62,591 bases of DNA from Methanosarcina sp. KYL-1 (lineage in GTDB: Archaea > Halobacteriota > Methanosarcinia > Methanosarcinales > Methanosarcinaceae): assembly GCF_024372725.1 (NCBI RefSeq), contig NZ_VOUA01000022.1, positions 1 through 62,591 on the forward strand, written 5' to 3'. A program made the translations under genes and the position numbers. Below the pieces are notes generated by a model. The model ran no database searches. It had not been told where the DNA came from and saw only the letters and a list, made by a program, of their open reading frames with translations. Positions 18,344 to 26,642 of this stretch are shown in pieces (positions within the stretch are counted from its first letter, which is position 1; the number at the start of each line of letters is the position of its first letter).

Positions 18344-21300
18344 TCATTTCCTTATCTTCATAACTAAATATTCAGAGAGAATCAGGAAAATAGGCAGGGA
18401 AATTAACATCATGATTTTACTTATTCCCCCCGTTTTTCCCTCCTCATTACTTTCTTCTTTTTCCCCGCTTCCATTAATGACCCCTGATTTTCCTGACTTA
18501 TTCAGGCTACCGAGAGCTCCGTGGAGTTCGTCGTTTTCGACCAGGATCTCCTCTTCGGCTGTTTCCTCTTCAATCGTTTCCTCTTTTCCTGTGTATTCAG
18601 CTATTGCAAAGGAGGAATAGCCGGGAGTACTGGATTTGAAATAGGTACATTGTTTGTCTTCACCTACTTTTTCGGTATACAGGGGCTCCCATTTTTTGTC
18701 GTATCTCAGCATGCTGATCAGGGATTCGTTAATATCGTTATTTTCTATCCAGGCTTTCTCAACCTTGAACTCGATGTAGCCGTTCTCAAGAACTTCCGGC
18801 ATCCCAGCTCCACTATCTCCTACCCAGATGTTTACGTTTTTGTACACTTTTCCCGGCGCGGGAATCGAAGCCAGAGTGGTTTTTCCTTTGAGCACTTCTG
18901 CTATGGTTGTCGTTCTCTTAAAACTCCTCTTTGGGTCGAATTCGATGCAGGTAATGCAGGTTGCGTTTTCCACGAAATCAAACCTTACGTGATATCCGTA
19001 AATGATATATCTTGTTGAAAGTTCCTTGACCTGGACGTTTTTAGCAGGTTCCTTTGAACCTCCTCCCGAAACGCTGGGGGGTTTTGGCTTTTTCTTGCTA
19101 CCTCCGCTCCCAGAAGAAGCCACTTTCTTGGAAACCGTCACCGTTCTTTTTATTTCGTTGTTTGTTTCCCTGCTTTCAAAAACCGCATTTTCGGAATCCA
19201 CAACAACTCTTACTTCGAAATTTCCTTCCTTCTCCGGAATCCAGGTAAAAGTTCCTGTTGAGGTCTCACTCCCTGAAAGTGCCGGTACAGATAGGTTTCC
19301 TTCATATTCCCCAGCTATATAGTATTCAAGGTCTGCGGGTCCCGAGGTTACAGATCCCTCATTCTTTACGGTTACAGTGTACTCCACACTTTCTTCGGGT
19401 TTTGGATTTTGAGGTTTCCATGTAAGTGTTTCTATAATAAGGTCCGGGGACTCTTCAGCTTCGGCTTTCACGGTCACGTTCCTTACGATTTCATTATTCG
19501 CCTCATTGCTTTCAGGTACGTCATTTCCTGAATCTGCGACCACCCTTATCTCAATTTCTCCCTCATTCTCAGGAATCAGGGAAAATTCAGCTTTCACATC
19601 CTTCCCTGGTAAAAGGGCCGGTATGGAAATTTCTTCTCCGGAAGTTCCGTCGATATAGTACATTGCAGTGCTGCTTTGGGCGGGCTCCGTTCCCAGGTTC
19701 CTTACTGTCAGAGCAAAGTTTAAGGTTTTTCCGGGTTCAGCCTCAACCGGCTCCCAGGACAGTTCTTCGATTACAAGGTCTGAAGATGCTTGTTCCTCTA
19801 CTACTATTATTGTCCCGGCCTTTTCGTTGTTTCCTTCATTGCTTTCAAAAACCCTGTCCTCGGGATCTACCCTGGCCCGGATCTCTTCTGTTCCTCCCTT
19901 TTCCGGGGTCCATGAAACTGAAATTGAGGTTTCCGATCCAGGATCCAGTTCTCTTACTTCTCTTTCCCCTTCAGTTCCGCCAACCTCATACTCCAGGTTC
20001 GTTTCTCCCGACCTCTCCGTTCCCAGGTTCCTTACTGTTATGGTGATGCTTATTGCTTCTCCGGGCTTCGAAATGAACGGCTCCCAGGAAAGATCTTCTA
20101 TTACAAGGTCTGAAGATGCTTGTTCCTCTACTACTGTTATTGTCCCTGTCTTTTCGTTGTTTCCTTCATTGCTTTCAAAAACCCGGTCATTGGGGTCTAC
20201 CCTGGCCCGGATCTCTTCTGTTCCTCCTGTCCCGGGGGTCCATGAAACTGAAATTGAGGTCTCCGAACCAGGATCCAGTTCTCTTACTTCTCTTTCCCCT
20301 TCAGTTCCGCCTACCTCGTATTCCAGGTCCGTTTCTCCCGACCTCTCGGTTCCCAGGTTCCTTACTGTTATGGTGATGCTTACTGTCTCTCCCTGGTCCG
20401 GGACAACCGGTTCCCATGAAATATTTTCGATTACAAGGTCCGGAAATGTCTTTTTTTCTACTATTATTGATCCGGTTTCTTCGTTGTTCCCTTCATCACT
20501 TTCAAAAACCAGATCCTTGGGATCTACCCTGGCCCGGATCTCCGCCGTCCCTCCTGTTTCCGGGGTCCATGAAAATGAAATTGAGGTCTCCGAATCAGGA
20601 TCCAGTTCTCTTACTTCTCTTTCCCCTTCAGTTCCGCCTACCTCGTACTCCAGGTCCGTTTCTCCCGACCTTTCCGTTCCCTGGTTCTTTACTGTTACAG
20701 TGATGCTTACTGTCTCTTCCGGTTCAGGATTTTCCGGCTGCCAGGTGATTTTTTCTATTACCAGGTCCGGAGATTTCTGGTTATACACGTTTACGAACTC
20801 TATTTTTTCATTGTTCCATTCATTACTTTCATAAACAAGATTATCGGGATCTACCTCTACCCCTATCATCACCGTTTCTTCTCTTTTCGGAATCCAGGGA
20901 AATGACATGGAAATACTTGATTCTGGAGGTATTTCAGGTACTTTTTCCTCTCCTTTCTCAGTTCCGTCAATACCACTGATATAGTAAACCAGATCCGTAC
21001 TTGCCGACTTTTCTTTTCCCTCATTCTTAACTATCACTTCAATATTTGCTGCCTTTTCTGGTTCCGGATTGGCCGGTTCGCAGGAAATCGTTTCGACTAC
21101 AAGGTCTGGATCTCCCCCATTTTTTGAAGTTATGAAGTATGTCTCTTCATTATTTTCTTCATCACTTTCAATAACGGACTCTTCGGTGTCCGCCTGTACC
21201 TTTATTTCCACCGTTCCTTCGGTTTCCGGAACCACTGTAAATGATATTGAATCACTCGATCCCGGGTGGAGTCCCCGTATCTCCTCATCCCCTGCGTAAT

Positions 21301-21640
21301 TTCCATCTCCATAATATTCAAGGCCCGATAAACCCCACACCTGTATATCGTCCCCGCTTATGAAGCACGCGAGATTAGTCCTTCCCGACCTTCTTATTCC
21401 CTGGTTCTTTACCGTTACAGTGACCCTCACCTGTTCTCCTGGTTCAGGTTCGACCGGTTCACAGGAAACCGATTCGATTACCAGGTCCGGGAGTGCTTCA
21501 TTGTCGGATGAATTTCCTCCGTTTATGGGAGATTCATCCTCCTCTCCTGCAGATGCTGCCCCCAATATAATTACAAGAAATACAAGAGTTATCAGTGATA
21601 CGGCTGTAAATGGCTAAAAATAAGTGGCCTTAATTTTCAT
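18344..21640 (-). CDS. Seven-repeat CARDB surface protein with PGF-pre-PGF domain; in-frame TAG in the signal peptide
   Basis: From the ATG at 21640 the frame reads MKIKATYF, then TAG (21616-21614), then 17 codons to the TTG at 21565 and on without a stop to 18344: about 1098 residues if TAG is read. Only this longer form has a full signal peptide: Lys near the start, then SLITLVFLVIILGAASAG. Seven CARDB beta-sandwich repeats of ~108 residues each begin (P/S)DL(V/I)(I/V)E. They are followed by a basic Ser/Gly/Lys/Pro linker, a PGF-pre-PGF domain (STRYIIYGYHVRFDF ... SSFAIAEY) and an acidic tail. The C-terminal membrane helix and basic end anchor it, although no PGF tripeptide is present. Without TAG readthrough, a TTG start would give a truncated signal. 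Confidence 0.85.
19775..20770 (-). repeat. Three near-identical CARDB-coding repeats
   Basis: The block CTACCCTGGCCCGG and its surroundings recur at 19867, 20197 and 20524 (periods of 330 and 327 bp) with high DNA identity. The other CARDB units in the same gene are much more diverged. Confidence 0.85.
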
Positions 21641-21820
21641 TATCTACTGCCCCCCCAACCAGATATGGAAATATCTGCTCCATATCTAACTTATAAAAAA
21701 GGTAATTATATAAGTCATAGAAAGAAAGCGCCGTATTTTTTTTTCTGAACAAAGATCTAATCACCAGTTCAGTTCCAAAAACCTGTCCGGTCCTGAAATT
21801 TACGCGCCGTTATCTTAAGA

Positions 21821-21940
21821 ATTCCTTTTAATTCCTTTTAATTCCTTTTAATTCCTTTTAATTCCTTTTAATTCCTTTTAATTCCTTTTAATTCCTTTTA
21901 ATTCCTTTTAATTCCTTTTAATTCCTTTTAATTCCTTTTA
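21821..21940. repeat. 10-bp tandem repeat, twelve copies
   Basis: Twelve perfect copies of ATTCCTTTTA (21821-21940). The last three copies overlap the 3' end of the small membrane protein gene and encode its last residues. Confidence 0.97.
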
Positions 21941-22127
21941 ATTCATCTATTTCGCTGCCGTAAACCATCCGGAGCAAGCCAAGTAAGACTCCGATTCCGG
22001 CTCCTAGAAGAATCCCGATTTTTACATCCCCTAACAAAATTCCTATTCCACTCCCAAGCAGCCAGCCGCCAACAAAAGCAATTTCCGCATCCGAGTTTTT
22101 CTGATCCCCTTCTTTTTGTTCCCCCAT
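21918..22127 (-). CDS. Small glycine-zipper membrane protein
   Basis: 69 residues. A charged N terminus (EQKEGDQKNSD) is followed by two Gly-rich hydrophobic stretches with GxxxG-like spacing (GGWLLGSGIGILLG; GILLGAGIGVLLGLL) and a charged tail. The last residues (ELKGIKRN) and the stop are encoded by the 10-bp array, so the C terminus is set by the repeat phase. Start chosen at the ATG at 22127. No named family recognised. Confidence 0.6.
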   Translation of the reverse strand: MGEQKEGDQKNSDAEIAFVGGWLLGSGIGILLGDVKIGILLGAGIGVLLGLLRMVYGSEIDELKGIKRN

Positions 22128-25910: not shown

Positions 25911-26642
25911 TCAGTTTCTATTAATAAGTTTCTCTAAAAACGCTTTCCCTTCTTCGGATTTGAATTTCGGAATTTCCCAGTTCTGGGTGATTTTCCTGCG
26001 CAGGGATTTAGTTTCCTTACCGGACACAGGGTTAAAGCCGGAGATTTCATATTCCTTTCCGGAAACTATGACTCCTCGCCGCTGCCAGGCCGGAAGCGCC
26101 GCCAGATTGATCCCCCTTTCAAAAAGCAGCTCATGTATTTCGCTTTCTTTTTTTCCTTTCAGGAACTTTGAAGCTTCTTCCCCACCCATACCTTCATTTC
26201 TTAACGTATAGTATCCGTAGGATGCTGCACAGTTGCGCCAGGCTTCAAGCTGCCTCCAGTGCAGGTACTCGGGGATTTCTTCTCTTTGCAGGGCAACTAC
26301 CCTTGCATCGAAAGCTATGGGCTCCTCAAGCCCCAGACTTATTGTAAGCGCACTTCCCAGAAAGCTCGCCGTGACGGAATCGATTTTCTCAACCCGGCCG
26401 TCAAAAGGTAGGTCAATGAATAAGAAACTGATCTCATCAGAAAAAGTGTAGGCAAAAAGAGGGCTCAAACCGCTTTTTTTTATGAAGAGTTCAGCCGTAT
26501 TAGCAATTGCCCTGGCGAAAGTTTCGTCGTAAGGTTTTTTAAAGCCCAGGCCTGAAAGCACGTTTTTAAAATTCCTGCCGTCAGCGCGCACAACCACGGG
26601 AGGGATACAGCGCATCTCAGCAAAGATTTCCCGGCTTTTCAT
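25911..26642 (-). CDS. thg1: tRNA-His guanylyltransferase family protein (Thg1-like)
   Basis: 243 residues, complete. Thg1 landmarks in order: VVVRADGRNFKNV (metal-binding Asp of the polymerase-like palm), FAYTFSDEISFLF (second Asp/Glu pair), FDARVVAL, YLHWRQLEAWRNCAASYGYYTL and RRGVIVSG. Archaeal Thg1-like enzymes add or repair 5' nucleotides of tRNA by 3'-5' polymerisation. In M. acetivorans the orthologue is known to contain an in-frame TAG read as pyrrolysine; here the frame has no internal stop. It shares the cluster with tyrS, 24 bp after the PRC-barrel gene. Confidence 0.9.
   Translation of the reverse strand: MKSREIFAEMRCIPPVVVRADGRNFKNVLSGLGFKKPYDETFARAIANTAELFIKKSGLSPLFAYTFSDEISFLFIDLPFDGRVEKIDSVTASFLGSALTISLGLEEPIAFDARVVALQREEIPEYLHWRQLEAWRNCAASYGYYTLRNEGMGGEEASKFLKGKKESEIHELLFERGINLAALPAWQRRGVIVSGKEYEISGFNPVSGKETKSLRRKITQNWEIPKFKSEEGKAFLEKLINRN

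Follow-up and report, generated by a model that had tools for sequence, protein, structure and literature searches.

In the methylamine methyltransferases MtmB, MtbB and MttB, a single conserved in-frame UAG is read as pyrrolysine (Pyl), and the Pyl is catalytic and located in a cytoplasmic enzyme. Outside the methyltransferases, Thg1 and transposases are known to contain Pyl, and a sensory kinase is predicted to do so (PMC3639795, PMC2933860, PMC8211752, PMC1914089). The Thg1 gene of M. acetivorans has a UAG where orthologues have sense codons; this UAG was reported from a single species and considered to be neutral (Heinemann et al. 2009, via PMC2933860). In the predicted sensory histidine kinase (cluster 16, PMC3639795), the UAG is conserved across species and internal to the sensor kinase, and conserved ambers are also present in Methanosarcina transposase genes, which are mobile elements and do not encode exported proteins (PMC2933860, PMC8211752). 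The established uses of Pyl are catalytic or seemingly accidental.

Here we describe an in-frame amber codon within the predicted signal peptide of a surface protein encoded by Methanosarcina sp. KYL-1 (G000), in a 62,591-nucleotide stretch of contig NZ_VOUA01000022.1, hereafter the window, and compare it with genomes of a sister genus (g5; G036 to G039) and of other Methanosarcina. Like mtmB, mtbB and mttB, which are present in the same genome, the gene has a single in-frame UAG, but a Pyl at this position would lie in a leader that is presumably cleaved off, and there are relatives that lack the TAG. In contrast to the Thg1 amber, this amber is shared by four species from two genera and lies in a signal peptide. 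Among the open-licence papers searched, none was found that reports a signal peptide containing Pyl. In a discarded leader Pyl could act only through its decoding, not in the finished protein, and a leader amber makes the question of whether Pyl supply can regulate genes a testable one. Genes interrupted in this way may be truncated or discarded by gene callers.

The amber-interrupted gene and its product

The features of the locus, all on the minus strand, are as follows.

18344..21640, minus strand: gene encoding a CARDB-repeat/PGF-pre-PGF secreted surface protein, 1098 codons with the amber counted, translated with TAG as O
21545..21640, minus strand: predicted signal peptide, MKIKATYF-O-PFTAVSLITLVFLVIILGAASAG, based on homology to the uninterrupted signal peptides of relatives and on hydropathy
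21614..21616, minus strand: in-frame amber TAG, codon 9, inside the signal peptide, as read in the sequence
21563..21565, minus strand: non-conserved TTG, the sole common start codon to follow the TAG ahead of the mature protein; initiation here would yield no signal peptide
21641..21690, minus strand: 5′ leader, containing a G-run and a predicted hairpin of 12 bp ahead of the ATG, based on fold prediction and alignment
21700..21725, minus strand: TATA-like region TTTCTATGACTTATATAATTACC, identical in G036, G037 and G038, a putative promoter judged from its sequence

The ATG at 21640-21638 is followed by codons for MKIKATYF, by TAG at 21616-21614 and then by PFTAVSLITLVFLVIILGAASAG, and the 1089 codons between the TAG and the TAA at 18344 are open, with no further lesion; the sequence and frame are exactly as an earlier note on this DNA had read them. 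Domain searches identified seven CARDB stretches in the product (PF07705, E 4e-165) and a PGF_pre_PGF domain (TIGR04213, E 1e-52) at residues 864-1014, consistent with the CARDB surface protein named in that note. With these repeats and this domain, a signal peptide and a hydrophobic segment at the C-terminal end, the last two judged by hydropathy and homology, the product has the make-up of an archaeal CARDB/PGF-pre-PGF surface protein. The only domain models that matched were CARDB, PGF-pre-PGF and other repeat or unknown-domain models, with no match to the MtmB, MtbB or MttB families.

When read through the TAG, the leader is a normal signal peptide, with two lysines ahead of the TAG and a 12-residue core with a mean hydropathy of 3.2, and a putative cleavage site follows ASA. 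Initiation at the TTG at 21565-21563 would leave MGAASAG, without a hydrophobic core, and so, as the earlier note had argued, a signal peptide is obtained only by read-through. No conserved usable start codon is present after the TAG in the G000, G036, G037 and G038 orthologues compared.

A 20-base TATA-like block upstream of the gene is identical in all four amber species (G000, G036, G037 and G038). The DNA spanning the promoter, leader, ATG and leader peptide is 76% identical in G000 and G036, and ~90% identical within the sister genus. The leader hairpin has a z of -1.8 (fold of 21620-21690), and at the corresponding place the sister genus has a shorter stem, CCAGA/TCTGG. Just upstream of the promoter, at 21820-21945 of the window, there are about a dozen tandem copies of a decamer, AATTAAAAGG, and similar arrays are present in other Methanosarcina genomes.

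Orthologues and the state of the codon

Syntenic orthologues are present in three sister-genus species, with the surrounding gene order conserved relative to 11.6-28.4 kb of the window, and each has exactly one in-frame TAG, at codon 8. In G036 the leader reads MKMKVTI, TAG, YPSIIVTLVTLVFISMIPGIVSAG; in G037, MKMKVTI, TAG, YLSIIVTLITLIFILMIPGTVSAG; and in G038, MKMKVAF, TAG, YSSIIVTLITLVFISMMPGTVSAA. The encoded proteins are 44-52% identical over the matched part, and in G000 and the orthologues the UAG is flanked on both sides by conserved coding sequence. The TAG is present in all three assembled sister-genus loci; for G037, the assembly covers 773 codons of the gene, up to a contig end. The contig of the fourth species, G039, stops short of the gene. 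That syntenic orthologues in the sister genus share one in-frame TAG within this predicted signal peptide is a new finding of the comparison.

Within Methanosarcina, the orthologues in all ten genomes first examined have identical flanking neighbours and are 40-45% identical over the matched part. The leaders of the other Methanosarcina orthologues examined conform to MKxxxFF(S/H)S.., with a sense codon at the site of the TAG, and among the matches listed the N-terminal part contains no stop in other genomes of the genus. The residues at the amber site in relatives vary, being Ser, His, Asn, Tyr or Val. The N-terminal alignment proposed in the earlier note has therefore a divided outcome, with a sense codon in the other Methanosarcina orthologues and a TAG in G036, G037 and G038. 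The corresponding loci of G029, G006 and G003 yielded no copy, and the G002 copy is broken by TAA stops; the gene is dispensable in the genus. No recognizable gene is present at the syntenic place in the outgroups G034 and G035. A DNA search for close orthologues within the genus returned repeat and low-complexity matches only, a scan of genome contigs found one good relative, on a contig that ends before the leader, and a plasmid search gave no match.

Ten neighbouring proteins gave a tree, rooted with G034/G035, in which G000 is the sister of the other Methanosarcina examined and the sister genus lies outside, with 99-100% support at these nodes. Given this topology, the amber either was present in the common ancestor of the two genera, with one later loss, or arose on two occasions. 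The TAG is codon 9 in G000 but the adjacent codon 8 in the sister genus; this one-codon offset leaves a single origin unproven and favours two gains or a local rearrangement.

Decoding of UAG

The G000 genome encodes a complete pylTSBCD, in the order pylT, pylS, pylB, pylC, pylD, together with TAG-bearing mtmB, mtbB and mttB, and so contains what is needed for the Pyl reading put forward in the earlier note. In G036 to G039 also, pylS is adjoined by a tRNA-Pyl, and the tRNA-Pyl beside pylS has a CUA anticodon in G000 and in all four of these genomes. No cis element is known to be required for Pyl insertion at UAG (PMC8211752, PMC9499178), and folding of the region 3′ of the TAG gave no signal of a PYLIS-like structure (z -0.75). 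The pylB of G000 apparently ends in TAG, as reported for other species (PMC2933860). TAG terminates 22 of 490 long ORFs in a G000 sample, although some of these are spurious or are methyltransferases (two are mtbB and mttB). UAG is unlikely to serve purely as a sense codon in this lineage and, as it also terminates, read-through may be partial. In a 2025 study, archaea were reportedly found in which every TAG codon is read as pyrrolysine. If all TAG were pyrrolysine in the host code, a Pyl in a leader would be less surprising.

We consider it very likely that the UAG is a translated codon, read as Pyl during synthesis of an exported surface protein. The computed basis for this is the homology on both sides of the TAG, the leader TAG in four species, purifying selection and the Pyl machinery; from these we infer Pyl as the residue, cleavage of the leader and a dependence of expression on Pyl. 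Ribosomes would initiate at the ATG at 21640 and the UAG at codon 9 would be decoded by Pyl-tRNA(Pyl) in competition with release factor. Elongation through the hydrophobic core would then complete a normal signal peptide, and the 1,000-residue CARDB/PGF-pre-PGF protein would be exported, with signal peptidase removing the leader and, with it, the pyrrolysine, so that the mature protein would be without Pyl. When charged tRNA-Pyl is lacking, only the octapeptide would be made. Because the UAG would be decoded by Pyl, output would depend on Pyl-tRNA, and surface display of the protein would depend on the pyrrolysine supply.

Gate or tolerance

Two accounts of why the codon is there are about equally likely, and both accept that the UAG is read as Pyl. 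In the first, which is advanced tentatively, the amber is a selected gate, with Pyl serving as a supply signal rather than for its chemistry, such that a large adhesin-like protein would be displayed only when charged Pyl-tRNA is present; secretion may then be restricted to methylamine conditions. The presence of the amber in all four assembled loci, at a position where abortive products would be cheapest and from which the residue would be cleaved, speaks for a gate. In the second, held no less tentatively, the codon has no role. A residue in a cleaved leader tolerates almost anything, so the TAG could have drifted in, and it would persist because Pyl-tRNA suppresses it efficiently. Such neutrality has a precedent in the harmless Pyl of M. 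acetivorans Thg1 (PMC2933860), and it would accord with the functional-looking sense orthologues and with an amber site that is variable among relatives; a sense codon serves the other Methanosarcina well, and so Pyl is not needed for function. Neutral drift fits less well, however, with a leader amber in four of four assembled loci (G000 and G036 to G038) from two genera, whereas the Thg1 TAG is present in only 1 of 14 genomes. Under two gains, chance would bring the TAGs to within one codon of each other in ~0.3% of cases; this figure assumes uniform placement along a gene of 1,100 codons, although leader sites tolerate more change than the average site.

Other readings of the interrupted frame

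The short UAG-ended peptides MKIKATYF and MKMKVTI, located directly past a conserved promoter, would also be compatible with an upstream ORF, in which ATG to TAG encodes a separate leader peptide and the protein begins past the TAG, without a signal peptide. This is highly improbable, as the start codons past the TAG are not equivalent, being a TTG in G000, whereas the sister genus has an ATG, two codons earlier; these later starts cut the hydrophobic core that all four species keep, and in the sense orthologues one continuous frame runs through the site.

A plain nonsense mutation, a pseudogene or a sequencing error in the G000 strain would require that the TAG is unread and so ends translation at residue 8. 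Related CARDB copies do decay in the genus, as in G002 and in a G000 copy on contig C46 that contains TAA, TAG and TGA. For the amber gene, however, dN/dS is 0.27-0.38 in every pair, within the sister genus and relative to G000, over 654-1187 compared codons, and the gene is, on these ratios, under purifying selection; the 33-codon leader alone has too few substitutions to show selection at the level of codons. As the gene is dispensable, decay would be expected to follow an unread amber, but none of the four amber copies is damaged as far as its assembly extends, and the 1089 codons in G000 have no other lesion. Three independent sister-genus genomes, in which this leader also contains an in-frame TAG and the assembled part of the gene is intact, refute the recent nonsense mutation that the earlier note offered as the plain alternative. 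Given these TAGs, the conserved promoter, leader and ATG, the absence of a usable later start and the purifying selection, all three forms of this explanation are very unlikely. That the UAG is read by a suppressor other than tRNA-Pyl is scarcely credible, as a CUA tRNA-Pyl adjoins pylS in G000 and in G036 to G039.

The genome-wide statistics are based on sampled stretches of 0.86 Mb (G000) and 0.42 Mb (G036). An early in-frame stop without a later start was not enriched for TAG among 586 ORFs in the 0.86 Mb of G000 (6 TAG, 12 TGA and 9 TAA). As this pattern is common and not TAG-enriched, it proves nothing alone; the amber gene is above chance because there is homology on both sides of its TAG and a TAG in three sister-genus orthologues. 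Tandem stops seemed at first to be overrepresented behind genes that end in TAG, but with more data the difference was not significant (4 of 19 versus 12-16%). In a codon-usage scan for interrupted coding frames, there were too few cases to establish an excess of TAG over TAA and TGA.

Other ambers in the group

The Thg1 gene is located at 25911-26642 of the window, 4.3 kb upstream of the amber gene, and has a sense codon in G000. The syntenic orthologue in G001 has a TAG and 13 others have a sense codon; a TAG has been reported in the M. acetivorans gene (PMC2933860). In G036 (C1:2920452-2920826), G038 (C60) and G039 (C73), the gene for a second CARDB/PGF-pre-PGF surface protein is interrupted internally by a TAG, always at the same position. 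The G000 copy of this second gene, on C46, has decayed (TAA, TGA) but retains the TAG there. An in-frame TAG is also present in a gene encoding a PAS/GAF sensor histidine kinase in seven genomes of two genera, for example at C42:8355-9110 in G000 and C1:3384683-3385441 in G036, and is at the same position in the six that were aligned. In the kinase's own preceding PAS repeat, there is a Gln where the TAG stands. This is probably the Pyl candidate designated cluster 16 (PMC3639795) and, together, the second CARDB protein and the kinase suggest that use of Pyl in this group is wider than the methyltransferases.
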